Position numbers and translations under genes: made by a program. A model generated the notes under the pieces. It searched no databases, was not told where the DNA came from, and saw nothing but the letters and a program-made list of their open reading frames with translations. Shown here in pieces: positions 425 through 19,100 of a stretch of DNA of 23,845 nt. How positions within the stretch are numbered: the stretch's first letter is position 1; each line of letters begins with the position of its first letter. The stretch comes from a virus. The DNA is taken from IMG/VR virus record IMGVR_UViG_3300006990_000162, positions 1 to 23,845 of that record; one strand, given 5' to 3'.

Positions 425-466
425 AAGGGTAGCCGTTGACTTAATTGTTGGCGGCTATTCTCCTTT
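425..466 (-). terminator. Candidate rho-independent terminator of the late operon, between convergent operons
   Basis: TAGCCG at 430-435 pairs with CGGCTA at 452-457 around a 16-base loop. A second pairing, AAAGG near 424-428 with CCTTT at 462-466, can extend the stem past a mismatch. Read on the minus strand, the hairpin is followed by CCCTTTTATTTT, a reasonable U-tract. The downstream arm contains the TAG stop (455-457) of the 1225-aa gene. On the plus strand the tract after the stem is poor, so termination of the late transcript is better supported than bidirectional action. Confidence 0.5.
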
Positions 467-3400
467 GGCAGTGTCTTTGTACAAAGATAGTATAGCTCTA
501 AACTGATTTAACTCACTCTCTGTCATGGTTAGTGGGTCTTTTATTTTAATAGCTTTTAGTTCTTTTTCCGTTGCACCTTCGTCACGTAGCTTTTCTAAAC
601 GTATCTTGTGGAAAGTTTTCTTAGCGTTTTTGTACTGTTCACTATTGCCAGAGTAGTTTATCGTATCGTATTTCTGTTTGTTTATCCTATGGTTTTCAGA
701 TAGAAAAGGCATAGCTTCATTTACTGCAGACCTAGTTTCTTTTATTATCCTGCTTACTTCTTGTCTACGATAAGTGTTTGTACCTTTCATAAAGTCCTTG
801 TCAGCTAATAACTTTCTGGCTTTTCTTTCAAGCAAAGGAGATAGGGTTTCGTTAAACAGCCTGTCGTACATAGCAACCTGACTTCTTTTGTTTGCTCTAA
901 ATCCTCTTAGCCCTGCCATAGTGTATACTTTTTCAGCAGCCGTTTTACCCCTGACTACCCTAACACCAAATATAGAACTTAGTGGATTAGGATCGTACAA
1001 ATCCCCTTCTCTAGTTGCAGCACGTAGCTGACTAAATTCATTCTCTTCGTTAGTATCACGAAATATGTCTAGTATATTATCTAGGTATCTGGTAGCTTCA
1101 AGAGAAAATACTTCTCCCCCACCCCTTTTAATTAACTCTACTTCACCAGTGTCACTAACCACAGCTTTTTGTCTTTTATCTTTATGTATATCTGTATCAC
1201 GAACAAAACCTACAGCCCTGTCTATTGTCTGAAAGGGTCTAGTAAATCCAGCTAAGAAACTACCTGCACGTCTTTGTAGTTCTGCTGCACCAGCTTCTCC
1301 GTTAGTTTCATCAAACATCATGTTAAGGATTCTATACATATCGTTACCAAACTGTATGTCTTTAGCAAACTGACCTACACCTAGTTGAACGAGACTATCC
1401 TCTATTGCCTCTGGTGTACTTGTTGCATAGTAAGGCAACACACCGTCCTTCACAGGGCTAGGATCAGCAGCTTTACCTAAAGGTCCAAGTGTTCCTTGCC
1501 TAGATAACTGGTTAAACAATCTACCCATAGCTAAGAACTCTGACATAGGAAAGGCGTTCTTCGTGTCGATAACTGTGCCACCCCCAACATCTAATTGTGT
1601 AGACTCTAACCCTCTGTCTTGTCTCTCTTGATCCATACGAGCAGCTAGCACTAAACCTGTAGTACCCACAGCCGCACGACTAAAAGCCTCCATAGTTTTT
1701 ATGTCTGCTTTACCTCGCATGATAGCAGCAGTAGGTGATATTAATCCTGCAGGACCAACCTGATAGACAGTGGCTACAGTGTTATTGAAGAATCTACCAA
1801 ACGGTAACACAGAACCTAACACAGGCAAGTTGGATATACTTTCTACAAATTTAGCTGTGGTTCTAATAACAGGCGCTTGCTCTACAGTCGTGTAGTCTTT
1901 TGAGAAAACACTCTTCATTGTACTGTCTAGTGCAAGCCCCATTACATCTTCGTCTATTGCGTTAAGGTTGTTTGTACGCATTGCATCAGCAAGAGTTACA
2001 TTGTTTTTTATTCTAAGCTGTTTGTCTAGCTCTGTCATAAACATCTGAGATTTAGTGAAGGTATCCTGTGCTCTAACGCCTGTTAACTTGGTAGATGCAT
2101 CAACAAAACCCTCTATAGTTCTATATACCTTGTTGTTTGGATTCATATCAAACTTATCTGCTGATATTTCTACACCAGTTCCCCCCACTGTCTCGTGCAG
2201 CAAGCTTTTTACTTCTTTATTTTCATCTAAGAACTTTATGTAAGCATCATGCGTAGTAAAAGGATCAAGTAAGTTTCTAAACTTGTCTCCTTGTATTTGT
2301 GCGTATACCTTACCTATTCTTCTTGCTTCTCTTCCTGCCTCTGTGTTGCCTCTTAACATACCGTAAGCGTAGAACATACCACCGTTTAAAGCATCAGCCA
2401 CAGACTGTCCTAAGTAATACTGTGACCAGCCAAATATATTAGCTGCAGTTGTAGGCACAGATGACACAAGAGTTCTACGCCACACGTTTTGTAGATACAT
2501 AAGTTGCTTCGGTTGTTTTTCTTTTGACAGATAACCTGGCAGTCCATCCTCTAGGGCATCTCGTATCTCTTTACGCTCTAACGCTTGATTAATTATGTCA
2601 TTACCCATAACAACACCAGCGTTTAGTTTGTTCTTCGCTTGAGCAAATACCGAAAGTTCTCTACCTAAACCACTAGAGTAAGACGCTATCACATCACTAA
2701 GTTTTACTTTAGCTGCTGCTGCATCTCCTAAGTGTATACCTGTAGCTTTCTCAAAGTCTTTTGACATGGCAACAAATTCCTTGTCAGGCATGACACGTAT
2801 TACATCTGTTAAAAAATCTGATATAAAAGTATCTTTGTTTACCGTTATACCTTTTTTTCGCAATAGCCCTACAAGACCTGTTTCTTTATCTGGCCCTAAA
2901 AGTATCTCACCTAATAAACCTTCTGGCATCATTTGATTACCACGGATTTCTTTACCAGCTTCTACTTTCTTAGCCCATGACTTATATCCCTGTCGTATTA
3001 CTTTACTAGCCTCAAATCCTACATCTGCATCCACTAAACCTTTTTTAGTAAACTTACGCATAGCCATCTCTTTTTGGGCATCTGCTAAACTAGTCTTGCC
3101 AACTAGTCCTCTTGCTCCACTACCTACTAATGAAAAAGCAGGAGCAACTGCACCACCTAACATGGTACTAAGTAATACTTGTTTTTTATTTATTGTATCT
3201 ACAGAATCATCTACGTTTACATCTAAGTATATGTCCTGTATTGCTATGTCTTGAAAGGCTGCAACTGTAGCGTCTGCCCCAAAGGTTGCACCTAGCTCAA
3301 ATACTTTTCCTTTTTTAAGTCTATTTTGATTAAAGTCTTTTAATGATTCATACCCAAGCTTACGATACCACTCAGACCTAATATTAATTGCAGACTGATC

Positions 3401-4132
3401 TAGTGCTAGTTTACCTGCTTTAGTTCTAGCTGCACCTTTACCTATTTTACCTATTAAATCATCTTGTGCTTTTTTTACTGCTTTCTTAACTTCTTTTGAG
3501 TTAGCTCCTTTTTTGATAGCCTCTTTGTAGGCTCTCTTACTAGCTTCTTTTATTGCTTTCTTACTAGCTGTAGTTACACCTAAAGTAGCAGCCCTACCTA
3601 CACCACCAGTAAGAAGACCTAAGTAGTTGGATGGGTCTGCTGCTGCAGCAAAGACATAATCTTTTATACCATCTATTTTACCAGAAAGAGTTTCGCCTCT
3701 GTTAAATAAGTTACCTAAACTATCATACAATCTATACGCATCTGCAGCAGCAGCTTTGTCTGCTTCACTACCCTTACGTACAAACTGTACCTCACCTGCT
3801 GTTGATAAGGTGTTTGCATTAAACCAGCGCATATGGTCTACAAAATCATTGACTAGCTTATTGTCATCCTCCATAGTACGATAGTCTTCGCCTTTATTTC
3901 TAGACATGTACTCACGTATGGTATTTAGATTACTGCGTGTATGTAAATCTTTTATTTTAAGAACTTTATCAGGGGCTGTGGTATCGAATAACTGATCCTC
4001 TTCTGAATCATAATCATCATCAAACAAAGCATCTACAGAACCTGTGAACTTTTTCTTAGGCGATACAGTTAAAGCTGTGCCATAACTATCGTCAAACAAA
4101 TCATCTATATTGCCTTTATAAACTTCTGACAT
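455..4132 (-). CDS. Giant internal (ejected) virion protein candidate, 1225 aa
   Basis: This is the last gene of the late operon. Its size, helical Ala-rich composition and position match the large internal or ejection proteins of short-tailed phages (T7 gp16-like role), but I see no gp16-type catalytic domain. The N-terminus carries an acidic motif of the form (N/S)-(I/V)-D-x-LFDD-x-Y twice (residues 8-17 and 32-41) and a shorter QLFD copy (47-50). Residues about 180-242 are rich in Lys and Ala and look like a basic amphipathic helix. Gly/Ala-rich hydrophobic stretches lie at about 160-188 and 319-345. The C-terminal third is charged and helical. The ATG at 4130-4132 overlaps the previous stop (TAATG), with GGAG five bases before the overlap. 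It could instead be a structural protein of another kind. The ejection role is inferred. Confidence 0.6.
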   Translation of the reverse strand: MSEVYKGNIDDLFDDSYGTALTVSPKKKFTGSVDALFDDDYDSEEDQLFDTTAPDKVLKIKDLHTRSNLNTIREYMSRNKGEDYRTMEDDNKLVNDFVDHMRWFNANTLSTAGEVQFVRKGSEADKAAAADAYRLYDSLGNLFNRGETLSGKIDGIKDYVFAAAADPSNYLGLLTGGVGRAATLGVTTASKKAIKEASKRAYKEAIKKGANSKEVKKAVKKAQDDLIGKIGKGAARTKAGKLALDQSAINIRSEWYRKLGYESLKDFNQNRLKKGKVFELGATFGADATVAAFQDIAIQDIYLDVNVDDSVDTINKKQVLLSTMLGGAVAPAFSLVGSGARGLVGKTSLADAQKEMAMRKFTKKGLVDADVGFEASKVIRQGYKSWAKKVEAGKEIRGNQMMPEGLLGEILLGPDKETGLVGLLRKKGITVNKDTFISDFLTDVIRVMPDKEFVAMSKDFEKATGIHLGDAAAAKVKLSDVIASYSSGLGRELSVFAQAKNKLNAGVVMGNDIINQALERKEIRDALEDGLPGYLSKEKQPKQLMYLQNVWRRTLVSSVPTTAANIFGWSQYYLGQSVADALNGGMFYAYGMLRGNTEAGREARRIGKVYAQIQGDKFRNLLDPFTTHDAYIKFLDENKEVKSLLHETVGGTGVEISADKFDMNPNNKVYRTIEGFVDASTKLTGVRAQDTFTKSQMFMTELDKQLRIKNNVTLADAMRTNNLNAIDEDVMGLALDSTMKSVFSKDYTTVEQAPVIRTTAKFVESISNLPVLGSVLPFGRFFNNTVATVYQVGPAGLISPTAAIMRGKADIKTMEAFSRAAVGTTGLVLAARMDQERQDRGLESTQLDVGGGTVIDTKNAFPMSEFLAMGRLFNQLSRQGTLGPLGKAADPSPVKDGVLPYYATSTPEAIEDSLVQLGVGQFAKDIQFGNDMYRILNMMFDETNGEAGAAELQRRAGSFLAGFTRPFQTIDRAVGFVRDTDIHKDKRQKAVVSDTGEVELIKRGGGEVFSLEATRYLDNILDIFRDTNEENEFSQLRAATREGDLYDPNPLSSIFGVRVVRGKTAAEKVYTMAGLRGFRANKRSQVAMYDRLFNETLSPLLERKARKLLADKDFMKGTNTYRRQEVSRIIKETRSAVNEAMPFLSENHRINKQKYDTINYSGNSEQYKNAKKTFHKIRLEKLRDEGATEKELKAIKIKDPLTMTESELNQFRAILSLYKDTAKGE
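3983..4114 (-). repeat. N-terminal LFDD motif repeats in the 1225-aa protein
   Basis: Two copies of an eleven-residue motif, G-N-I-D-D-L-F-D-D-S-Y (residues 7-17) and G-S-V-D-A-L-F-D-D-D-Y (31-41), are spaced by 24 residues. A truncated copy, D-Q-L-F-D, lies at 46-50. The intervening sequence is polar and likely disordered, so these may be short linear binding motifs. Confidence 0.7.
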
Positions 4133-5871
4133 TACAACTCCAACTGTTTAATTAATTCATCTATAACTGTTTTAGTTATATAAGGGGATAGTCTATTCTT
4201 ACCAGAAAATCTGTTCCAATAAGCTAGTAACTTATCTTTATCATTTAGTATGCCCTTATCTCTGGCATCTTTTACAAATGTGTTAATAACTAAAGTAGTT
4301 CTTTCTTTACTCTGATTTAAAACAGATTCAGTTACAGCACTATCTGTTACCTCTGATTTTGGATCTCCTGTCTCAGCATCATTTATGTATACTTTTCCAT
4401 CAGGTGTTACACTAAAACTCTGACCTCCTAAATTCTGTGTTGAATAAACTGTGATCTTAGGTTTAGCTTCTTCCTGTTCCTTTTCTTCTCTTCTTCTTTT
4501 CTCTGCTCTTCCAGAAAGCCCTCCCTCACGAAAGAACTGTCCTATGTCATCAAATAAACTTGGCGTATCTTTAGGGTCTACTTTAGTTTCTGGTATTTCT
4601 ATTTCAGGATCAGCATCTCTACGCTCATCTGCTTGTGGGGCCATTTGACCACCAAGTTCTGCTGGTGGTAACACCTCTTCAGTTATTTCTTGACCAGGGA
4701 ATAAAAAACTAGGCTCTGGAATAGCCCTAATAGCAGCATCTATAGACCCATCATCTTCATACATTGTGTCAAAGTTAAACCCTCGTTTCTTTAGAGTCTC
4801 CAAAACAGAGGTATCTTCTGAATCTAATTCTTCGTTGATCATAGTACCGTCTGCTTTAATTCTACTAAAAAAGATATTACCTATCAATTTACCATTTGCA
4901 TCCACATTGTATTTTAATGTTGTACCATCTTTTACTTCAGTAATAGTATTTCCTTGATCTGCTGCTATCGCACTTTTTAGCTTAGATGACAGAACAGATT
5001 TTTTAAGATCATCTTTTTCGTCTGCTTCTGCCTGTGCCACTAAACCTTCTATAAGAGGATTTTTAGACATGGATTGAATATCAGATAAAAAGTCATCTCC
5101 ATAAAGTTTATAGAACTTCTTTACAACCATTAACTCTGCTTTATCTTCTAGTCCTTGTTGCTCACCTTCACCTAAAGATTTTTTGTAAAGCTCTGTCTTT
5201 CTAAGATCTGAAAGGGCTGATTCTTTTTGTCTTAAATATTTATCGTATGTATCTACAGGATCATATACATTTGCTGTAGCCTGATCCACAGTCAAGTATA
5301 CAGAGGCTCTGTCGGAAGCTAGGCTATCATAAGCATCCTGTCTAGCTAATTCTATCATGCTCATCCTATTTGGATCATACCCTACTCTTGCAGCTTTCTT
5401 AGGATCAACAGCAAGTAGTTTTTGAAACGTTGTTCTTTCGTCAGTAGGAACAGACATATCTTGTTCGTTAGCTAATAGACCATATGAACGCTCTAAAAAT
5501 TCTTTTACATCTCCCTCTTCAAATAGTTCTGCACCTTCAACTAAAGTGTCTACCTCTGAGAAACTTAAAGTACCGCCACCTTTTGCAGCACTGTACTTAG
5601 TTAAGCCTTTTACAAAGTTAGGCAGTCCATTTTCACCTGAAGATATAGCAGCTTTTATTTGTTGAGGACTTGCACCTAAGTTACGTGCCTGTCCAGCTAA
5701 CATGATACCGTTGTTTACTAATTTTTTTCTATTCTTAAATACTACTTGAGCCTGTTTGTACTCTTCATCTAGTAAATCTTTTTCATCTTTCTGTGCTTCA
5801 ACTCTTTGATTTATACCTGTGCTTATAGTGTTAAGAAAGTTTGTTGTAAATGAGTTCCAATCAAATGCCAT
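4132..5871 (-). CDS. Internal virion protein candidate, 579 aa
   Basis: I recognise no named family. Residues about 20-60 and 210-305 are charged and probably helical. Residues 305-345 look like a small beta unit. Residues about 385-470 form a Pro/Glu-rich, then Arg/Glu-rich, disordered linker that contains LFDD (439-442), the motif repeated at the N-terminus of the next gene product. The C-terminal about 105 residues return to a compact mixed fold. There is no signal peptide or membrane segment. The start is supported by a strong AGGGAGGA upstream, and one base separates it from the preceding stop. Its place between a small virion-type protein and the giant 1225-aa protein suggests it is an internal core or ejection protein. 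That is inference from position and composition. Confidence 0.55.
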   Translation of the reverse strand: MAFDWNSFTTNFLNTISTGINQRVEAQKDEKDLLDEEYKQAQVVFKNRKKLVNNGIMLAGQARNLGASPQQIKAAISSGENGLPNFVKGLTKYSAAKGGGTLSFSEVDTLVEGAELFEEGDVKEFLERSYGLLANEQDMSVPTDERTTFQKLLAVDPKKAARVGYDPNRMSMIELARQDAYDSLASDRASVYLTVDQATANVYDPVDTYDKYLRQKESALSDLRKTELYKKSLGEGEQQGLEDKAELMVVKKFYKLYGDDFLSDIQSMSKNPLIEGLVAQAEADEKDDLKKSVLSSKLKSAIAADQGNTITEVKDGTTLKYNVDANGKLIGNIFFSRIKADGTMINEELDSEDTSVLETLKKRGFNFDTMYEDDGSIDAAIRAIPEPSFLFPGQEITEEVLPPAELGGQMAPQADERRDADPEIEIPETKVDPKDTPSLFDDIGQFFREGGLSGRAEKRRREEKEQEEAKPKITVYSTQNLGGQSFSVTPDGKVYINDAETGDPKSEVTDSAVTESVLNQSKERTTLVINTFVKDARDKGILNDKDKLLAYWNRFSGKNRLSPYITKTVIDELIKQLEL

Positions 5872-5872
5872 C

Positions 5873-6463
5873 TTACATGTCCTCCCTAGCCATTAAGCCT
5901 TTTTTCTCTACGGCCTGTAGTTCTACTGGCTCTGGCGGTGCATCTACAGTATCCTCTTTTGTTTCTACTTCTGTAGCACCTTGTTCTTCAAGTGAAGCTG
6001 CCATGTCCTTTAGTAACTGAACACCTTTATCATCTTCTCCACCTGCTTCAATACCCCTATCAATTGCTGCTCTAAGCATCATCTCTACTTTTTTCTGTTC
6101 TTTTTCTTTTTGCTGTTCTTGCGGATCTACTGCACTGTATTTGAAATCTATCTCGTATGTTTTTGCTACAGCCGCTAGAAACTCTGTTAGCACAGGAGCA
6201 ACCACTAACCCTACATCTAAATTGTGTATACCGTTCATAACAGAAGACATGTACAATGTTTTAACAATAGGCTGTAGAGGTATGCCCATGTCAACTACAG
6301 TCATTATATCATCTATTATTTCTGGATCACGAAAGTTTGTAAAGTAGTATCCTAATGCTTGATCTACTGTGCTTGTTTCAGAAGGGCGTTCCCACGGTCT
6401 TTCTTTAGGCGTTGTGGTTAACGACTGTCCTGGTATTGGTGCTCCAAAGTTTACTTCTTCCAT
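5873..6463 (-). CDS. Virion-type protein with PIPGQSLT N-terminus, 196 aa
   Basis: The N-terminal segment (residues about 4-31) has the pattern GAPIPGQSLT..P....WERP. From memory, similar proteins recur in marine cyanophage and related virion gene clusters, where they are annotated only as structural or hypothetical. Residues about 33-105 form a predicted helical domain containing a conserved-looking MGIPLQPIVKTLY stretch and an MNGIHNLDVGL stretch. The rest (about 113-196) is highly charged, Glu/Lys/Gln-rich and probably coiled-coil or disordered. A small AGGAAA Shine-Dalgarno-like site lies seven bases before the ATG. It sits between the holin-like gene and the internal protein genes. Its biochemical role is unknown. 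Confidence 0.6.
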   Translation of the reverse strand: MEEVNFGAPIPGQSLTTTPKERPWERPSETSTVDQALGYYFTNFRDPEIIDDIMTVVDMGIPLQPIVKTLYMSSVMNGIHNLDVGLVVAPVLTEFLAAVAKTYEIDFKYSAVDPQEQQKEKEQKKVEMMLRAAIDRGIEAGGEDDKGVQLLKDMAASLEEQGATEVETKEDTVDAPPEPVELQAVEKKGLMAREDM

Positions 6464-6932: not shown

Positions 6933-8237
6933 TTAATTTGGAGTATCGCTAGGCGATTCTTCTGAAAAAGCATCTCTTACTAGACGTGTATACTCATCAC
7001 CTTTAGTTCCGAAAGAGTCTGCTCCTGATACACCTGTATACAACCACTCTTCTGCAGAAACTGCTCCTTGATTATGTGCATAACCTAAAACTCCAAGCTT
7101 TTCTTTCATAGACATATCTCTATACTCCTGAGAGTTCTTTGTTAAGGCTATGTGATTTGCTGTAGTATACGCTTTAAATGCTCTATCTTGTAGATCCTTG
7201 TCTTTTCTAAAAGCCTTTCGTGATTTAGCATCGTGTTTTAAAGTTATGCCCAATATTCTTGCTGCATCCAATTTAGCAACCTCGCCCATTTGATACCTAC
7301 CGTCATAATGTTTATTTGCTCCTCCTCTAATGTTATAACGATCTGAACTTTCCTTTTGTGCTATAGTCTCTCTAAATGTATTAAATAAACTTTCTGGAAT
7401 ATTTTCTACTTTGGCATCAGGTTTAGGTGGATCAAAATATGCAGGAGCATTACCTGAGTTAAGTAAGGCTATTACTTCCGCAGTTAGCTCACCTGTTATA
7501 GGTAAATCAGAAGCCTTTTGTAACTTTCTTATAGCTCTTGCTGAACCCTTACCTAGTATGCCATCTACACCCTGTGGCTTGTACCCTAAATCAGTTAAAG
7601 TTTGCTGTGCATCTTTTACGGTTGTTCCTGTTTTTACGGCTATTCTAGGGCTACCCAGCCCTCCTTCTGGTATAGGATCAAGCCGCACCTCATCAATATT
7701 AATGCGGTCACTATCAACATCAACACTTTCAACCTCATCTCTAACCTCTCCTAGTTTTTGTGAGTCAAGTCCGTATTGGATATCTTGTACACTGCCCTCT
7801 GGCGGTCTTAAATCCAACTTATCTAGCAGTCTACTTTGTAAACTGTCTATGTCTAATGTGGGATCAGCTTTACGCATCATACCCATAGGCATTTTTATTA
7901 TGCCTTGCTTCTCTAGACCGTCACGGTTAGCACTCAGTATATCTAACACAGTAGATCTATTTACGTTGCTAAATCTAGGTGCTCTGTCTACACGGACCTC
8001 CTGAGTAGGAAACTCATCAGGCTGATAGTATAATGGATCAGACATATCATTTAAAACACGAGTTGCAGTAGACACTGGTGTTTTGGCTGGCGGCAACTCT
8101 TCTTGTTTTATTGGCTTGTTGGCTATAGACCTTTGACCAAGACCTTTTTGTTCTCTGGCATCAAGAGCTTCTTCATCTATTTGTGCAAAGTTATTTCTTA
8201 TTACGTTTGCTACAAAGTTCTCAAAGTTGTCTTCCAT
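6933..8237 (-). CDS. Peptidoglycan-binding, lysozyme/transglycosylase-like cell-wall hydrolase, 434 aa
   Basis: Residues about 203-260 match the PG_binding_1 fold: V-K-D-A-Q-Q-T-L-T-D-L-G-Y, then G-V-D-G-I-L-G, then A-I-R-K-L-Q, then ITGELT. Residues about 283-425 look like a lysozyme-superfamily domain: Glu296 in AQKESSD is the likely catalytic acid, followed by GRYQMG (313-318) and a helical half with YAHNQG (386-391). The first about 200 residues are Asp/Glu/Pro-rich and probably disordered, which is more typical of a virion-associated wall hydrolase than of a compact endolysin. The product would cleave the glycan strands of the host wall during entry, lysis or both. AGAGGA precedes the ATG. 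Without a structural comparison I cannot say whether it hydrolyses or transglycosylates. Confidence 0.75.
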   Translation of the reverse strand: MEDNFENFVANVIRNNFAQIDEEALDAREQKGLGQRSIANKPIKQEELPPAKTPVSTATRVLNDMSDPLYYQPDEFPTQEVRVDRAPRFSNVNRSTVLDILSANRDGLEKQGIIKMPMGMMRKADPTLDIDSLQSRLLDKLDLRPPEGSVQDIQYGLDSQKLGEVRDEVESVDVDSDRINIDEVRLDPIPEGGLGSPRIAVKTGTTVKDAQQTLTDLGYKPQGVDGILGKGSARAIRKLQKASDLPITGELTAEVIALLNSGNAPAYFDPPKPDAKVENIPESLFNTFRETIAQKESSDRYNIRGGANKHYDGRYQMGEVAKLDAARILGITLKHDAKSRKAFRKDKDLQDRAFKAYTTANHIALTKNSQEYRDMSMKEKLGVLGYAHNQGAVSAEEWLYTGVSGADSFGTKGDEYTRLVRDAFSEESPSDTPN

Positions 8238-8261: not shown

Positions 8262-11200
8262 TTATGTAGCAAATATGCCTACTTTACTCGTTGCCATGCC
8301 ATTAACTATAGCGCCCAAAAACGTACCTGCAGCACTCGCTAAACCACCACTTTTTTCACCATCAGAGGCTATGTTTTGTAGGGCTAATTTATTTTCTCTA
8401 TCCATAGCATTGTCTGCTGTTCTCCAAACATACTCCATGAGATCTCTTTCTTGTTGCCATAACTCAGCGATACCTGCTGCTGTAAGATTGTTAGCAGCCA
8501 TAGCTTCACGCATAGCAGCCTCATTATCTGCAGCATTGTTTATTGTCGCTATACTTTGTCTCCATACAGCATTAGCTTGCGCTATCACTAATTGATTTTG
8601 TGCGTTGAAGATATCACGTTGTGTATCAAGCTCTGCCTGAAACTTAGTCATACTATTTTCTTCACCTGCATTAAACTGTTCCATAGCATTTTCTTGTGCT
8701 AGATTAAATTGATCTACTTGTGTAGTTAAGCTTGCAAAAAACTGTTCCGCTTGATTGGCGCTCTCAGCATTAAATTGTAAAGATGCGTTCTCAGCGGCTT
8801 GGTCAGAAAATATACTTTGTACAAGTGATTGTGCTTCAAACATAGTAGCTTGTTGTTCGTTGTCTAAATTAGACATGTCCATTTGTAAAAATGCTTGAGC
8901 TTGTTGTGCTGCAGCTTGTTGTCTGTTGTTTAGGTTAGTCACATCCACTTGTGTTAAAGCAGCAACGTCAGCTAAAAGTTTAGCTTGTCTGTTATCTAAG
9001 TTAGCTAAGTCAACTGTTTGTGCTAACTCAGAGTTTCTGATAGCACGAGTTTGCTCTGCTGTGAAGTTTAGATTGGCTATCTCTGCAATACGTTCTGATC
9101 TTATAATATTTACTTGTTGTTTATTAGTAAGCTCTTGACCTTTCATAGCTGCTTCTATCTGTGCATTTGCAAGAGCAGTTTGTTGACGTGCAGATAAGTT
9201 TTCTACTTCGATGTTTAACTTATTAGTCATGTTAAACATTCTAGTTTGTTGTTCGTTGTTTAACTCTATTTCTCTTTCTGCTAACTGATTAGACACATTA
9301 AACAAAGATGTTTGTTGTCTGTTATCTAGAACTCTACCTTCCATAGCTGCTGTAGCAACAGCATCCTGTATAAACGCTTGTTGTTTACTTGTAGCGTTTT
9401 GCATCTCTGTTTCAAATGCTTGAGTGCTTTCTATTACAGCCATCTGTTGCTCGTTAGAAAGAACTTGCCCCATCATGGATGCTTTTACTTGTAGATTAGA
9501 CAACGCAGTTTGTTGTGAGTTAGACAGGTTAGCCATCTCTACTTCTAGATTCTGTGTGGATTCTAGTATAGACATCTGCTGTCTATTTGTCAGGTTCAAG
9601 TTATTTACTTCTGCGTATCTAGAAGCGTTAGCTAGTGCCACGTTCTCACTAATACCCAGTGTTATATTTTGTAGACCTGCTCTAAGTTGTGCCTGTGCTA
9701 GTACAGCCTCTTGAGTGTTACTTAGGTTAGTTAACTGTAAGTTAGCATTGTTCATGCTGTTTTGCACTGCCATAGCTTGTCTGTTATTTAAATTCTGTAA
9801 CTCAAACTTCTGTGCTGCTGCTGCGTTAGATAAAGCTACAGCTTGTTTGTTACGAACATTTTCCATATCCATAGCTGCAAATGTAGCTGCATCAGCTTGA
9901 GCTATAGGTATAGCGCTCTCCATAGCAGCTTGTATCATGGCGGCTCCTACCATAGAGCTACCACCTAAACCTCTGGCGTTCATAACTTCATTAACTCTAC
10001 GTAAAGCTCCTGCAGCCCATGCAGGTGTGCCATCGTCAAATGAAGCCATAAGTTTTTCTAGCTGACCCTCTACTGTTGACTGTGGGCTAACTTCACCTAA
10101 AACAAACTTTGCTTCTAGTTGTTGAGAAAAAGTAGCTGTTTGGGCCTTACCTTTGGAGTCTTCATTTAGTGCTGTAAGAGTTGCACCAGTGACAACAATC
10201 TCTTCTACATTTAGTATTTCGTTTACGTCAACTAACTCAGAAGCAGAAACATTTGTTTCCTCTGCAGTTACATCTGGTTTAAACTCTGATTTCTTTTCTT
10301 CTGCACTGGCCTCTTCAGAAAACTTAGCAGCGTCTGCCACTTTTGTAATGGAAGCCTCTGCTGACTGAGTAGGGTTCAGTGTGTAATCTACTTCTGCAGT
10401 TGCTTTAGGTGTATCCCCTGCAAACTTAGCAGCTTCTATATCACCTTGCTGTTCAATCTGTTCAGTAGTTGATTTAACATAACTGTCAAATATCTCTGCA
10501 GTAGGTAACTCACCGCTATCTAAACTACGTTTTACTTCTGGTATCTGTCTTATTGTATCAAGAGTTTCAGGTGACAAACCAAGCTGTGCTAAATCCTGTG
10601 GACTCATTGTTTCAGCTTTCATCAAAGCTTCGTCAGATGGTGTTCCTGTTGCAGAAGCAAAATCTTCTAGTGCAGTTTTTACCTTTTCTTGAGATGTAAC
10701 TGCATCGTAAGTTGCCTCACGAGGATTTTCTGGTGTATCTATTGCACCAGCTTTAGTGGCTAACTTTACAATTACATCATCAGCATCTAAAACCTGACCT
10801 GTTTCAGAATCTATAAGCTGCCCATCCTTTTCAGTTATTTTGTATACATCTTGATCTGTTACTAGGCTTGTAGGGAGTGAAATAGTTTTAGCTAAAGATT
10901 CAGCCACACTAGGAATCTCTGTAACTTTTACACGCTCCTCTGCAGCAAGTAAGTCTGCGTAGGTACTTTCTATTAAAGATTGTGCGTTTTCTAAATTTGT
11001 TTTTGCAGTGTTGTACTCTTGCGTTAAACGTTCTTTTTCTTCTGCAGAGACTAAGTTACTGTTTGCTGTAACTGCTGCAGTTAATATATTTAATCTACCT
11101 TGTGCAAACTGTTGATTCTGATGCCCTGTACTTATAGAGATACCTAAATCTGGATATGATATTTGATAATACTTACCAGGTTTAGTAAGTTCTACTTTGG

Positions 11201-12758
11201 AGTCTTTTGTTATATTGGTATATTCTTGTAAAGTAGATTTAGTCCATGTTTTGTCTTGATCTAAATTTTTATTCTTACCATCTGTACCTTCATTGAAGTC
11301 AGTTGCAAAAGCACCTGCATAAGCTTCTTCAGAGTTAGTGTATAAACCTGATGGATCTGTTAAATCATTAAAAGCTTGTTGTGCATCTGTTAAAGTTTTC
11401 TGTGCATCTGCATAAGCTTTCTGTGCTTCATCTAAGATTGATTGAAGGTTATCATCTATAACTGTATCGTCTACCTTAGTATCGTCTACCTTTGTATCGT
11501 CTACCTTTGTATCGTCTACCTCTTCATCTGTTTCTTCGTCTTTTTTGGTCAAATCTATGATAGCGCCTGTCTCTTCTACTTCTTTAGTATCATCAATAAC
11601 AGTTGTATCGACATCAATATCTCTCCCATCTAAAACTGCAGCAGAATCATTATCAACAGGTAAACCTATGGATGTCCTATAATTTTGAACTGCTTCAGAG
11701 TAGTCTGCTGCACTTGTGTACTCTTTTCCTTGAAAATGATATGTGTTAGTATTTGGATTAAAATAGTTTTCTGTTGAACCAGAGCCAGTACCAGAGGAAG
11801 TTCCTGTTTTAACCATCTTAGATTCAATACCACTGCCAGGCTCCCCTGCAACTTTAGTGTACTCTATACCATCAACAACAACTTTATCTCCTATATTAGA
11901 ACCTATAGAAGCATCTTTTAAAGTACTATGTGTGTCTTCTTTAATTGTTGTTCCTGTAACTTCTGTGCCAACTGTAGAAGTACCTGTAGTACCTGCTGCT
12001 GCACCTGTAACTTCTGTGCCAACTGTAGAAGTACCTGTAGTACCTGCTGCTGTCTCTGCTTCTTGAATTACAGCGTCAGGTATATTAGCTTCTGATTGTA
12101 ATTCTACTAATAATTTTGAGGCTAATTCTGGATTTCCACTTTCTTGTGCTATTTTAATTTGATTAATGCGATTATCAAAGTCTTCTGGTTTAGGTGCAGC
12201 ACTTACGGTTCCAACATTTTTCAACAACTTATTTTCTGCATTATATTGTTGTGACTCTTCTTGCAGTTGATTTACTGTTTTACCTTGTTTTTCTGCTCTG
12301 TATTTCAAAGTAAGATCATTACCTTGTTTGTGTACAGCCGCCTCTATACTATATGGATCAACAGATTTTGCTGACATATCTGTAAAAAACTTATTATAAT
12401 CATCTCTAGAGTTTAACTCTACGTTTGTATTCTTAGCGTGATTTAAGTACGCTTCTGCAAAACCTTTTTGAACCCTAACTTTACTACCATCAGGAAAAGT
12501 AATCATGGCCGAATCGTCTTGCGCACCTGTGGCTACATCTGTTAATACAGGTCCACCTTCGTTCATACCGATACCTGACAGGGGTTCACCCTCTACACGT
12601 TGCTTGGCTATTTCAGTATAGCGTCCTAGCATAGAACCAGCAGAAGGTGTGGCTGCAACAAATGCATCCATCTGTTCTTTTCTTGCTGGGCCATCATACC
12701 CTAGTTCAGTTAGTAACTGATATGTTTGTTGAGTATTAAAACCTTTAAACTTAGCCAT
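8262..12758 (-). CDS. Giant repeat virion protein with a 22-residue helical array, 1498 aa
   Basis: Regions in order: an N-terminal globular-looking segment (1-180); low-complexity Gly/Thr/Ser and acidic linkers with exact DNA tandem repeats (about 230-440); a helical stretch with A-Q-K-A-Y-A-D-A-Q-K-T-L pattern; a mixed central region (about 500-860); a conserved-looking Gly/Ala/Met-rich segment (about 880-967); then tandem 22-residue units. Units are register-perfect from V968 to D1319 and weaker on both sides (about 946-1407). The C-terminal about 90 residues are helical and end in a Gly/Ala-rich hydrophobic segment. No enzyme motif is seen. From memory, related arrays occur in marine phage structural proteins of unresolved function. 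The size, position and regular helix suggest an ejected, tape-like or envelope-spanning virion protein (inference). The start has only a weak GGTGA upstream and lies immediately after the previous stop. Confidence 0.6.
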   Translation of the reverse strand: MAKFKGFNTQQTYQLLTELGYDGPARKEQMDAFVAATPSAGSMLGRYTEIAKQRVEGEPLSGIGMNEGGPVLTDVATGAQDDSAMITFPDGSKVRVQKGFAEAYLNHAKNTNVELNSRDDYNKFFTDMSAKSVDPYSIEAAVHKQGNDLTLKYRAEKQGKTVNQLQEESQQYNAENKLLKNVGTVSAAPKPEDFDNRINQIKIAQESGNPELASKLLVELQSEANIPDAVIQEAETAAGTTGTSTVGTEVTGAAAGTTGTSTVGTEVTGTTIKEDTHSTLKDASIGSNIGDKVVVDGIEYTKVAGEPGSGIESKMVKTGTSSGTGSGSTENYFNPNTNTYHFQGKEYTSAADYSEAVQNYRTSIGLPVDNDSAAVLDGRDIDVDTTVIDDTKEVEETGAIIDLTKKDEETDEEVDDTKVDDTKVDDTKVDDTVIDDNLQSILDEAQKAYADAQKTLTDAQQAFNDLTDPSGLYTNSEEAYAGAFATDFNEGTDGKNKNLDQDKTWTKSTLQEYTNITKDSKVELTKPGKYYQISYPDLGISISTGHQNQQFAQGRLNILTAAVTANSNLVSAEEKERLTQEYNTAKTNLENAQSLIESTYADLLAAEERVKVTEIPSVAESLAKTISLPTSLVTDQDVYKITEKDGQLIDSETGQVLDADDVIVKLATKAGAIDTPENPREATYDAVTSQEKVKTALEDFASATGTPSDEALMKAETMSPQDLAQLGLSPETLDTIRQIPEVKRSLDSGELPTAEIFDSYVKSTTEQIEQQGDIEAAKFAGDTPKATAEVDYTLNPTQSAEASITKVADAAKFSEEASAEEKKSEFKPDVTAEETNVSASELVDVNEILNVEEIVVTGATLTALNEDSKGKAQTATFSQQLEAKFVLGEVSPQSTVEGQLEKLMASFDDGTPAWAAGALRRVNEVMNARGLGGSSMVGAAMIQAAMESAIPIAQADAATFAAMDMENVRNKQAVALSNAAAAQKFELQNLNNRQAMAVQNSMNNANLQLTNLSNTQEAVLAQAQLRAGLQNITLGISENVALANASRYAEVNNLNLTNRQQMSILESTQNLEVEMANLSNSQQTALSNLQVKASMMGQVLSNEQQMAVIESTQAFETEMQNATSKQQAFIQDAVATAAMEGRVLDNRQQTSLFNVSNQLAEREIELNNEQQTRMFNMTNKLNIEVENLSARQQTALANAQIEAAMKGQELTNKQQVNIIRSERIAEIANLNFTAEQTRAIRNSELAQTVDLANLDNRQAKLLADVAALTQVDVTNLNNRQQAAAQQAQAFLQMDMSNLDNEQQATMFEAQSLVQSIFSDQAAENASLQFNAESANQAEQFFASLTTQVDQFNLAQENAMEQFNAGEENSMTKFQAELDTQRDIFNAQNQLVIAQANAVWRQSIATINNAADNEAAMREAMAANNLTAAGIAELWQQERDLMEYVWRTADNAMDRENKLALQNIASDGEKSGGLASAAGTFLGAIVNGMATSKVGIFAT
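8802..9857 (-). repeat. Sixteen tandem 66-bp (22-residue) units
   Basis: Units start at residues 968, 990, 1012, 1034, 1056 and every 22 residues to 1298, with no insertion or deletion. The unit head has the consensus L1-(S/N/D/T)2-N3-(R/E/K/S)4-Q5-Q6. Hydrophobic residues recur near positions 9-10, 16 and 18-20. The DNA has diverged between units, so the periodicity is kept by selection on protein. Weaker units in the same register extend to about residues 946 and 1407 (bases 8538-9923). A 22-residue period is two hendecads (11 residues, three helical turns). Confidence 0.9.
11464..11523 (-). repeat. 15-bp tandem repeat encoding VDDT(K)
   Basis: Four copies of a 15-base unit (GTATCGTCTACCTTT on the plus strand, with small changes in the first and last copies) lie head to tail. 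On the coding strand they give V-D-D-T-K three times and then V-D-D-T-V. They sit in an Asp/Glu/Thr-rich linker of the 1498-aa protein. Confidence 0.9.
11953..12052 (-). repeat. Near-perfect 51-bp tandem duplication (17-residue unit)
   Basis: The stretch starting CCTGTAACTTCTGTGCC at 11953 is repeated from 12004. The first 49 bases of both copies are identical. The encoded unit is G-T-T-G-T-S-T-V-G-T-E-V-T-G plus three Ala in one copy. Identity at synonymous sites indicates a recent duplication or slippage event in a flexible linker of the 1498-aa protein. Confidence 0.95.
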
Positions 12759-13217
12759 TTATGTCACCATGTATATTATTAAACCTAGCATCGCTGCTCC
12801 AGTTATTATGATTAGTATTGAAAGAGTCCAAGTAACTATTGCTTCTTGTATCTCTGCTTTACGATACTCTTGGTCTTTCTTCTTCTTGCGTATCTTTCCT
12901 TCAGTAGCAACAAGCTCATCCCATGCAGATGGCCCCATGCTGAAACTGATCCAATCCTTTAGCTCTTTTCTCATAGATTCAGCTTTTCTTTTAGCTGTAA
13001 ATATTTCTAGAGCTTCTGCCTCAACAGATCCTCCATTAAGTGCTTTCCACCAAGGAGGGTTTTTATTTTTTTGTTCAGCATAGGACAGGTCACTCATAGC
13101 ACCTGCCCATTGTGTCAACTGTCCTGACATATCTTGTAGGTCTTTACCTACTTGAAAGCCTTTCTTGAGCGCATTAAATGCTACAGTCGCACCACCTATG
13201 ATGGTAACTGGGTCCAC
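12759..13217 (-). CDS. Small C-terminally membrane-anchored protein, about 152 aa
   Basis: I prefer the GTG start at 13217 (product beginning M-D-P-V-T-I-I-G-G) over the GTG at 13223. The AGGGAG Shine-Dalgarno-like site abuts the upstream codon but lies seven bases before the downstream one. Residues about 1-55 contain a Gly/Ala-rich amphipathic segment (GGATVAFNALKKGF). The middle is charged, with a basic R-K-K-K-K-D cluster. Residues about 127-150 form one strong C-terminal membrane segment. From memory, proteins beginning MDP...GGATAAFNALKKGF are common next to fibre genes in marine phages, without a proven function. Lysis accessory or virion membrane-contact roles are both possible. It ends at TAA immediately before the ATG of the repeat-protein gene. 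Confidence 0.6.
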   Translation of the reverse strand: MDPVTIIGGATVAFNALKKGFQVGKDLQDMSGQLTQWAGAMSDLSYAEQKNKNPPWWKALNGGSVEAEALEIFTAKRKAESMRKELKDWISFSMGPSAWDELVATEGKIRKKKKDQEYRKAEIQEAIVTWTLSILIIITGAAMLGLIIYMVT

Positions 13218-13223
13218 AAGCAC
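13218..13223 (-). promoter_or_regulatory. Start-site choice for the membrane-anchored protein
   Basis: On the minus strand the sequence reads AGGGAG, A, GTG, CTT, GTG, GAC. The first GTG has almost no spacing from the AGGGAG ribosome binding site, while the second has seven bases. The second is therefore the more likely start. The region given here holds the two extra codons of the longer alternative. Confidence 0.5.
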
Positions 13224-15286: not shown

Positions 15287-16147
15287 ACTTTCAGCAGTAC
15301 CAGATACATAATTAACACCTCCTTGAGCAAAAGAAACTCTTCCAGTGGCAGTAAAGTCACCGCCAGTGCCTAAGTTTTTACCAATAGCGTAGTCCTCTGT
15401 TAAAGGACAGTACATAATAGGATTTAATGCAGATAAAGTTGAGACAGCAGTAGCGCCACCGTTAGAATCAATAAAAATCCTACGATTAGATTCTGTAGAT
15501 AAATCACGATAGGTGTAGTCAAGAAATACATGAGCTAATCTACCTTCTAAAAAATCGCCAGAGCGACCAGGCCCTCCTCCAAGCGTATGATATTGACGGC
15601 TAAATTCTATAGGGTCATTGTCGTAATTACTAAAAGAAAAGTGATTTGTCTCATCCGTATCGTCAACGTAAATATATCTATTTGAACTATTTCCTAACTC
15701 CATAGATATTAAGATATGTACCCAGCCAACTTTAAGATTAAGTGAGCTAGATGTTGCTGATAATCTTCTACTAGATCCTTGCCAACCATATATAACTATA
15801 TCGTTACCGTTTTTAATAAATACCTGAAAAGAATAAGTACCATCGTCAGCACTATATATGTAATGATTTCCACTATCATTCCTTCTAAAAACCCAAGCAC
15901 TAAAAGTAAAAGTTTTACTATCAGAGTTACTACTAAAGTCACTATCTCGCCCTAAGTAATCGCTATTACCTCCAAGCCTAGTACTAGTGCCTAAACCAAA
16001 ATTTCCAAGAGTAAGACCTGTTTCGATGGTAGTGCCATTTTCTTCAACACCTTTCCAAGAGTTAAGGCTAAAAAGGCTTTCTACATTTGGGCCTTCAGCA
16101 GGTCCTCCTGCACCACCGCCTAAAAGCTGCATCATTATACCTGACAT
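13487..16147 (-). CDS. LamG-like plus repeat-module fibre/receptor-binding candidate, 886 aa
   Basis: The first about 20 residues are Gly-rich. Residues about 55-255 resemble a LamG/concanavalin A-like sandwich: TFTFSAWVFRR, then YSFQVFIKNGN, then GWVHILISMELGN, then GRLAHVFLDYTYRDLS, then NPIMYCPL. From about 288 to the end there are roughly five modules of about 100 residues with patterns such as WIKKTSS...NWVVWHKSL and FIVKRIDGTSPWLMF, ending in Y(V/I)AxLF-type strands. I believe these match modules described in marine phage proteins (a DUF7483-like pattern). Glycan-binding and receptor contact are likely but not proven. The start overlaps the previous stop (TAATG), with AGGGAA upstream. 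It directly follows the fibre gene, so it may be a second fibre or a fibre partner. Confidence 0.65.
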   Translation of the reverse strand: MSGIMMQLLGGGAGGPAEGPNVESLFSLNSWKGVEENGTTIETGLTLGNFGLGTSTRLGGNSDYLGRDSDFSSNSDSKTFTFSAWVFRRNDSGNHYIYSADDGTYSFQVFIKNGNDIVIYGWQGSSRRLSATSSSLNLKVGWVHILISMELGNSSNRYIYVDDTDETNHFSFSNYDNDPIEFSRQYHTLGGGPGRSGDFLEGRLAHVFLDYTYRDLSTESNRRIFIDSNGGATAVSTLSALNPIMYCPLTEDYAIGKNLGTGGDFTATGRVSFAQGGVNYVSGTAESGMVWIKSRGSAVSHIINDTVRGANNFLNSSATTDNTPSSGYMTDFTANGFRVGTQSRVNNSSYFYQSWSWKKAPKFFDVITWTGNGSDNRAISHSLASVPGMIIVKKTSSQNEQNWIVWHNSLSAGEFLLLNDTNAKNTNNALFTTTQPNASNFYVGTDEAVNGNNSSYVAYLFAHNNGDGGFGITGDQDIIKCGTYQSDGSASEIDVNLGFEAQFIMAKAISTTGNWHVQNMLTGGAADGISNNPYLQWNTNDAESGDGTAGGIIPINNGFRVGLLGDINIFNATQTYAYMAIRRGPMAIPTKASNVFAVVDRFDDEIPQYKSNFITDLVLNLYTSSGTANRRIYHRLTGHKKLFTEATSAAQDDTDRKWDFNDGFLGVESDNYDGIMWSRAPNYYDQVHWNGTGANRTQGHNLGIAPEMMWIKKTSSTSNWVVWHKSLTSTTNGYILLDQDFDEQTISTAWNGTAPTDTNISLGTWTQVNQSGQRYIANLFGTVDGVSKVGTFTGNGTNQTIDCGFSSGCALFIVKRIDGTSPWLMFTDHHGIVSGNDTFWFLNDTSEKVTDSDIVDPADSGIIINYDSARYMNVSNAKYLFYAIAK

Positions 16148-19100
16148 TAACTTACGTTCCCTGATATTACGCAGACAGTTCCGCTTATAAATAAAATTGT
16201 ACAGACCCCTCTAGTTGCAAGAGTCACACTGCTTTTATCTTCATCTGTACCTGCGATATACGCAGTTGTAATTGAGCAAGTCACGGTAACATCTCCGCTT
16301 GTGTTGTTAAAAACAGAAACAGCATCCCCTGCTGAAAATGTACTGTTTGGAATTGTTATTGCACCACTTGATCCAACCTCTATAAAGTTACCTACATCTC
16401 CTGTAGCTAAAGTATAGCCTGATGTTTTGGCAGAGCCAGACTGAGGGATGGCTCTTATTTTACCGTCTGCATCGCTTATAACAAGTGAAGAATCAATAGT
16501 CATAGCGGTTGAACTGCCATCTCCGATACGAAACTCATCAGCGCTTCTTGCTACTTCTAAAAACCAATTGTGTTCTGTTCCTCCAGAAGACTTCCCTTGA
16601 ATTTTTAATTTTGTTGATTGGTTGTTATTAGCTGCTAATATTTCAGCACCACCGTCATGTGCTTGTGAGTTTGAAATAACGTTGCCACCAAAGTTAGCTC
16701 CTGCATTAAACGTAGCTGCTCCTGCTGCTGACATATCAAGGGTAAGGGCAACTATTGTACTACCACCATCTTCTCCACTAAATTTAATGTCTTTATCATT
16801 AACAAGTGACCTCATCTCAAAATCACTACTGTTATTTTTTAATAGACCAATACTTGTACCACCATCCTTAAAAAAGAAATCACCACCATCAGCATCAAGA
16901 ATAATATCGCCACCAACATCTATGGTAAAATCACCACTTTCAGATAAACTAGCACCAGTTAGAACAGTATTACCAACCTTAATTGTATTGTTGAAAGTAG
17001 CCGCGCCAGCGTCGGACATATCAAGGGTGAGGGCAGTTACAGTTGATCCACCATCGTTGCCTTGAAAAACCATATCTCCATCAGATATTGCAGAATAAAA
17101 ATAATACCCTGCATTATTATTACTTGCTAATTGACCAAATTGAGTGCCACCATCTTTTAAAAGAATATTTCCACCATCAGCATCAATAGTAATATTACCA
17201 CCAACATCAATAGTAAAATCTCCACCATCGGATATAGTTGAATCATTGATTGTTATATCATCTACAGTTAGAGCAGTTAGTGTACCTAGTGATGTAATAT
17301 TAGTTTGCGCTGCTGTTTGTAATGTACCAGATAATTGAGTTGCTGTCAACCTTCCTGTACTTGGATTGTAAGTAAAACCTGTATCAGTTTCTAATCCTTG
17401 ACTTCCTGTAGCACCATCAACAAACACTGGAAAAATAGTTTCATTTGCAGTATTGTTTGCAGATATAGTTACTTGTGTGGCTAGGGCTGCTGTACCTGTA
17501 GTATCCTGATTGAGTGTACCCACTGTAAAATCTAGAGTACCATCACCGTCTTGATACGCTACTGTAATGCCACTTTCAGTGTTGCTAGATACCATAGCTC
17601 CTACAGTATCCTGAATAACTTCTGATAAGTCTATATTCGCACTGCCATCAAAACTTACACCATGTATGTTCACTGCAGATGCTAAAGCTGTAGCAGTTGC
17701 GGCATTACCTGTTGTGTCTTGATTAAGTGTACCCACTGTAAAGTCAATCGTATTATCAGCGTCTTGATAAGTTACTGTAATACCGCTTTCAGTATTAGAG
17801 GATACCATTGCTCCCACAGTATCAGAAATAAATTCGGCTAGAGGTGTTTCATTAACTGTTATTGCATCTGCCTCTAGTGTACCATCTACATCCACATCTC
17901 CAGATATATCTAAAGAAGCCGCAATAAGCCCATCAACCTGTAAGTCTTCGTGATTAGAACCTAACTTTAACTCAAACTTTGGACCTGTAGTGTTGTATGT
18001 AAATGTAGCATCGTCACCACTGCCACCTTCTAGTGTAATACCTGCACCGTTGACTACAGCAGATGTACTGTTGCCACTATCAAGAACAATGTTGTGATCA
18101 TTAAGATTTACAGTCGTAGAGTTTACTGTTGTGGTTGTGCCTGATACAGTCAAGTCACCTGTAACTGTAAGATTATCTGCGACTGTAACCTCTGAGGTGC
18201 TGTGTCCTAATGTAATAGCTGTGCCTGATACTCCTGTACCAATAGATACAGACTCACTGCTGTTACCTGTGTCAACTACAAAGTAAGCATCTGACCCTTG
18301 TTTAATTGTAAAGGCAGTAGCTGAGTTATCAGATACAGCTACGTTAATATCTGTACCGTCAGCACTAATAGAGTCCAGTGCAATGTCACCAACGTTGGTA
18401 ATGTTGTTATCACCAAAACTTACATTGTCACCAAATGTTTTGTTTGTTAGTGTGTCTGTGGTAGTTTTACCTACTAAAGTATCTGTGGTAGCAGGTAGTG
18501 TGAGTGTTATGTTTCCACTAAATGCTGAGTGAGCAGGAGCTTGTAGTTGAGCATAGTGTGCATTAGAAGACTCACAATAAAATCTAACATATGATTGTGC
18601 TCCAGAGTTTTTAATAGAGATAGCACCTGACTGCATATCAATACCGTTAGAGCCATCTATCCTAACAACACCTGAACCATTGGGTGTTAGTGTAATGTTA
18701 CCGTTCGATACAGATACAATATCTTCTCCGTTAACATCAAGAGAACCCCCTAGTTGTGGTGTAGTATCTTCTACTACGTTAGCTATACCTGATCCAGATA
18801 CAGCTAAACCAGAAACTATAGTGCTACGTGTAATCTTTTTAAGTCCACCACCAGATGTATCTACAGCGAGAAATACGTCATCGTTAGCTACAGTGCTGAT
18901 CTCAGATAAATCACCTACACCAGTAGGATTAAAGTTTGTACCGTCTGCAATCAACAAATGACCTGCAGTGTTAGTACCCATAGTGAGATCATCACCGCCA
19001 ACGGTAAGATCACCTGTAAGTGTAAGGTTTCTTATACCAGTGTAGTCTTTGTTAGAATCAAGCACAACTGCTTTAGATGCAACGGCTGTACCTACAGCAG

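Follow-up and report, generated by a model that had tools for sequence, protein, structure and literature searches.

What holds a long protein repeat in register while its sequence drifts? The question is raised by a 1,498-aa protein encoded in a viral DNA of 23,845 nucleotides (IMG/VR record IMGVR_UViG_3300006990_000162; this whole stretch is called the window), which contains an array of 22-residue units. The gene and the parts of its product are as follows:

8262 to 12758, minus strand: coding sequence of the 1,498-aa repeat protein, a homologue of HMO-2011 gp25 (phage1322_25) (open reading frame; tblastn to HMO-2011-type phages)
10083 to 12758, minus strand: N-terminal region, residues 1-892, which differs among relatives (sequence comparison)
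11952-12044 and 11463-11519, minus strand: tandem repeats of low complexity, TGTSTVGTEVTG and VDDTK, which lie in the N-terminal region
9858 to 10082, minus strand: N-block, residues 893-967 (PAWAAG...RGLGGSSM...ESAIPIAQADA) (HMM, alignment)
9888-9908, minus strand: PIA motif of the N-block, used as the N anchor
8802 to 9857, minus strand: 22-residue repeat array, 16 units, residues 968-1319 (autocorrelation; AF2 predicts one helix per unit)
9528 to 9857, minus strand: units 1-5, a prefix block common to 11-unit homologues (unit-level profile alignment of 11 to 16 units)
9198 to 9527, minus strand: units 6-10, a 110-aa five-unit block, one copy here (profile alignment)
8802 to 9197, minus strand: units 11-16, a six-unit suffix (profile alignment)
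8538 to 8801, minus strand: C-terminal flank, residues 1320-1407, QFN repeats with a period of 11 (autocorrelation peak at 11)
8265 to 8537, minus strand: C-terminal domain, WQQERD motif and small-residue hydrophobic tail (alignment)

Residues 968-1319 corresponded exactly to positions 8802-9857 of the minus strand and, written in rows of 22 from residue 968, gave 16 units with no insertions or deletions. The BLOSUM autocorrelation of the protein reached 0.89-0.97 at offsets 22, 44, and 66 and was below zero at all other offsets, compared with 0.08 for the best of 300 shuffles. These results confirm the initial annotation of at least 16 units of 22 residues in perfect register. Its description of the DNA of the units as diverged also held: the mean identity between units was 25% for protein and 42% for DNA (29% for out-of-register DNA pairs). 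The unit head that it proposed, L-x-N-x-Q-Q, was exact in units 5, 6, 7, 9, 10, 12, 15, and 16, whereas in the other eight it was off in at least one position, the weakest being unit 4 (LGISEN). The suggested extension of the array to about 21 units was rejected, since both flanks lacked 22-aa repeats: residues 946-967 belong to a conserved nonrepeat block, and the flank from residue 1320 has a period of 11, not 22. An independent contig (L001) encoded an identical array, which rules out an assembly artefact.

Homologues were detected by tblastn in HMO-2011 (gp25, ADW08438.1), CRP roseophages, HTVC pelagiphages, Vibrio phage CHOED, rhizobial phages, including Sinorhizobium phage phiM6, and phages of Aeromonas and Pseudoalteromonas, and many IMG/VR contigs also encode them. 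Relatives were thus present throughout the HMO-2011-type podoviruses, which have been described as dominant and widespread at sea (PMC9038755). The window protein has the PAWA, PIA, and QAAENA..QFN motifs of the gp25 family and shares its N-block, 22-aa array, QFN flank, C-terminal domain, and gene order. It differs in length, with 16 units compared with 2-9 in gp25 and the other homologues from isolates, which are annotated as hypothetical. The only match in bacterial genomes, on a contig of a Flavobacteriaceae MAG (L381), is probably a phage contig that was binned with it. One homologue (L047, MW202701.1) is labelled "huntingtin" in GenBank, evidently a low-complexity misannotation.

The region common to all homologues runs only from the N-block through the C-terminal domain, and the part N-terminal to it varies; Pfam and PHROG searches with residues 1-892 of the window protein gave no match. 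An HMM found the N-block in 58 of 58 first-round sequences, and all first-round homologues that reach the region have it. The C terminus is glycine-rich and hydrophobic in the alignment. Clade-3 relatives add an S74 autochaperone domain (PF13884) at the C-terminal domain, which the window protein itself lacks. One homologue (L054, CRP-235, positions 2639-5170) carries LysM at the N terminus and S74 at the C terminus. Unit number showed no simple link with host: CRP phages on one host had 3 or 5.5 units, and pelagiphages had 2 or 9. It correlated with N-terminal length (Spearman 0.57), from which we conclude nothing because clades confound the correlation.

The initial annotation attributed the strict spacing to selection on either helical phase or total length. 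As a measure of phase, we used the number of residues separating the PIA motif from the QAAENA..QFN motif that opens the C-terminal flank (the C anchor) in all homologues with both motifs. After three contigs cut within the array were removed and one was re-anchored, 274 distinct arrays were counted; roughly 20 contigs, almost all from clade 3, had no matching motif and fell outside this count. Of the 274 arrays, 273 had an anchor-to-anchor distance, in residues, divisible by 11; the choice of motifs is blind to register, but a mis-hit inside the period-11 flank would still give a multiple of 11. Homologues thus do not routinely break the register, the sole break (-2 aa) being in a 26-unit array (L064) that has lost two residues in unit 25. 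On inspection, motif mis-hits accounted for the seeming breaks of L112 and L102 and for the odd lengths of L066, L068, L109, and L047. The arrays comprised 2, 3, 4, 5.5, 6, 7.5, 8.5, 9, 11, 13.5, 14, 16, 19, 21, or 26 units, and several members of the 5.5-unit class, inspected by eye, had cleanly lost the 11 aa that follow PIA. Because unit number ranges from 2 to 26 while all arrays except one keep the 11-aa phase, the sequence comparison indicates a constraint on phase and none on total length. Only the first of the two proposed targets of selection therefore stands.

The lengths were not evenly spread. In the window's clade, arrays had almost always 6, 11, 16, 21, or 26 units, plus the 5.5-unit variant, with a 2-unit array (L128) as an exception, and clade 2 formed a series of 4, 9, 14, and 19 units. 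Further exceptions to the five-unit step were L158 (11 units, clade 2) and L171 (7.5 units). The steps correspond to contiguous five-unit blocks of 110 aa. HMO-2011-like 6-unit homologues have only the equivalents of window units 11-16, and the block equivalent to units 6-10 is missing from 11-unit relatives, occurs once in 16-unit arrays, and has two similar copies in 21-unit relatives and three in 26-unit relatives. Unit-level alignments of 11 to 16, 16 to 21, 21 to 26, 4 to 9, 9 to 14, and 14 to 19 units each fit a net five-unit block.

We inferred length changes on two trees built without the array region. These gave 35-36 changes, of which about 21 of 36 were exact multiples of 110 aa, counts that are approximate because branch placement is uncertain, especially for single contigs, and because exchange of genes may make several events look like one or one like several. 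On both trees, many changes were of 5, 10, or 15 units. Distance-weighted parsimony on a reduced set gave 16 changes of five units, five of ten, and three of 0.5, the rest being mixed, including a change from 14 to 5.5 units in clade 2 and deep changes between clades; unordered parsimony gave fewer multiples of five (15). As judged from these sequences, growth in two clades is mostly by contiguous five-unit (110 aa) blocks.

A step of five units could correspond to one superhelical turn, a speculative reading, or could reflect the history of recombination. According to the latter explanation, the steps have no structural meaning and arise by tandem recombination between the most similar adjacent 110-aa blocks; neighbouring blocks in 21- and 26-unit arrays mostly share 54-71% DNA identity, well above the 42% mean of the window units. 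However, the clade 2 steps from 9 to 14 and from 14 to 19 each involve one contiguous five-unit block without visible tandem similarity, the step from 6 to 11 likewise differs by five, and the same step occurs at different sites in the two clades. In L034, a clade 2 array, the offset-5 score was not raised. We consider recombination alone a serious possibility, though we lean against it.

A structural reading of the step depends on the fold of the array. Residues 885-1498 were modeled by AF2 as a monomer from two alignments, of 15 and 90 sequences. With 15 sequences, helices of about 16 residues recurred every 22 residues, with pLDDT values mostly 60-70 in the array. The same pattern was obtained with 90 sequences, the helix spanning unit positions 3-18; confidence in the array was higher, with ten-residue block means of about 65-83 over units 2-14 and pLDDT below 60 in unit 1 and the last two units. 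Both runs gave parts of the flanks longer helices than the array, and the C-terminal flank was partly a continuous helix. Unit position 2 resembled a helix cap, being S, T, N, or D in 97% of clade-1 units but only 68% in clade 2; Q, likewise usual near the start of a helix, occupied position 5 in 90%, and Gly position 20 in 22%. The predicted helices and the residues at positions 2 and 5 are not independent, since AF2 may use the same signals.

The array is thus predicted to be a solenoid with one helix of about 16 residues and a loop per unit, which makes the single helix of about 53 nm proposed initially doubtful. With a pTM of 0.40, the model does not establish the global shape, including the number of units per turn; the figure of five would follow solely from the step size. 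Parallel units are favoured because adding five units would invert an up-down helix-pair repeat. Foldseek found no match to the array model among solved structures in the PDB (best E value of 0.068, the hits being for the most part helical proteins that were designed or unrelated), three profiles searched against PDB sequences gave no credible match, and none of the established solenoid folds (such as LRR, TPR, and ankyrin) has a solved structure that fits the array. Among predicted viral structures, the confident matches were homologues only. The solenoid, if real, would be without a counterpart among the solved structures searched.

Alternatively, the array could form a continuous hendecad coiled coil, with 22 residues as two hendecads, in an oligomeric rod of about 50 nm. 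The core-like spacing of positions 1-5-9-12-16-20 (4-4-3 twice) fits hendecads, and the clean period of 11 in the C-terminal flank, the half-unit (11 aa) length variants of 5.5, 8.5, and 13.5 units, and stretches of clade 2 with heads every 11 residues point the same way. Yet the hydrophobic moment of the array is low at 98-105 degrees, and position 18, on the opposite face, is hydrophobic. In the AF2 models, every unit interrupts the helix once, with a confidence that rises with alignment depth, and helix-end residues are conserved (S/T/N/D at 2, Gly at 20). The rod also leaves the five-unit steps unexplained, and we regard it as possible but doubtful.

The genes around the repeat protein bear on its function:

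6933 to 8237, minus strand: next gene, 434 aa, peptidoglycan-binding and endolysin-like domain (PF01471; phrog_5867, endolysin)
455 to 6463, minus strand: genes of 196, 579, and 1,225 aa, placed where gp14/gp15/gp16-like ejection proteins would be expected (relatives keep their order and sizes)
12759 to 13223, minus strand: upstream 154-aa protein with a C-terminal hydrophobic segment (phrog_32327, unknown function)

In relatives, a P22-like coat gene is followed by tail genes, fibres, the repeat protein, and three more genes (about 150-200, 300-950, and 800-1,900 aa), with a cell-wall hydrolase between the repeat protein and the trailing three in several phages. This order resembles that of ejection-protein loci (PMC8954989), and some relatives carry LysM or S74 domains in a mosaic fashion. 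The gene order, the mosaic domains, and the adjacent hydrolase suggest a role in ejection, and the likeliest identity for the repeat protein is that of an ejection (internal virion) protein of an HMO-2011-type podovirus. A search for proteomics of virions in this group gave nothing. The 196-, 579-, and 1,225-aa neighbours are similar in place and size to T7 gp14/gp15/gp16 and P22 gp7/gp20/gp16 (PMC8954989), but no sequence match to the T7 or P22 proteins was found, and none of the sequence tests applied to the neighbours gave a positive result. As far as we searched, no known ejection protein contains such an array.

Salmonella phage 7-11 gp020, a "DNA ejection protein," and Proteus phage Privateer gp018 occupy a similar locus with adjoining ejection-like genes, and for the Privateer relative of gp020 a verification by mass spectrometry of virions is noted. 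The S74 domain and glycine-rich end of gp020 are common with clade-3 members (hhalign, 99%, 87 columns), whereas gp020 and gp018 have no array and no detectable homology to the N-block or array. No homology to the Kuravirus/7-11-like DNA ejection protein was found along the body of the protein, only the clade-3 S74 end matching. The link to the 7-11 protein is indirect because the window protein lacks S74, and the 196-aa neighbour showed no homology to 7-11 gp022. In SU10, gp20-24 have been reported to leave the head (PMC9509320); SU10 gp022 has about 31% identity to 7-11 gp020 over 39% of its length.

An external trimeric appendage (a tail needle or fibre shaft) with the array as a stalk of variable length, a frequent feature, is improbable: clade 3 carries S74 chaperone domains, which trimeric fibres often have, and the gene comes after tail-fibre genes, but neither end has a recognised receptor-binding or beta-rich domain, the C terminus is glycine-rich and hydrophobic, S74 is also found on a protein annotated as a DNA ejection protein, and the gene is grouped with a cell-wall hydrolase and ejection-like genes.

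Tape measure proteins, with repeats in multiples of 11 aa and block-wise changes in length, follow the most similar logic; those with 11-aa repeats have variable numbers of repeats that align without gaps, and block duplication of 44 aa (PMC3271669). They have W/F anchors and determine how long the tail of a long-tailed phage is (PMC3271669), whereas the window protein belongs to a short-tailed phage, has no W in its array, and varies by 110-aa blocks. We rejected a tape measure identity, the relatives being podoviruses with short-tail gene sets.

The reading that we favour, tentatively and as somewhat short of probable, joins the ejection protein with a single-helix solenoid of about five units per turn that serves as an extensible spacer under selection for rotational register. 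The solenoid would bridge the conserved N-block and the C-terminal domain. With one superhelical turn close to five units, selection on the rotational relation between the two ends of the array would let these ends still meet their partners as the proteins exit the head. The exiting proteins would then help to build a DNA conduit across the envelope. Since length changes almost only by whole repeats, mostly five at a time, rotation between the array ends may matter in DNA injection. The more specific proposal, in which short-tailed phages use a new kind of 22-aa solenoid with a single helix per unit and a turn every five units as an ejected length element, lengthened by whole turns while its ends keep rotational register, is rather unlikely.

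The literature searched gave no description of how HMO-2011-type phages pass their DNA through the envelope, and the open-access literature gave no account of the array or its quantised length, most subscription papers lying outside that search. A length that evolves in fixed quanta offers a natural series, from 2 to 26 units, for learning what spacing and rotation mean to an injection machine. A second repeat array was seen elsewhere in the window, where positions 16147-20550 of the minus strand encode a 1,467-aa tail-fibre-like protein in which TAAELNILDGVTS repeats with a period of 13 form a short array.
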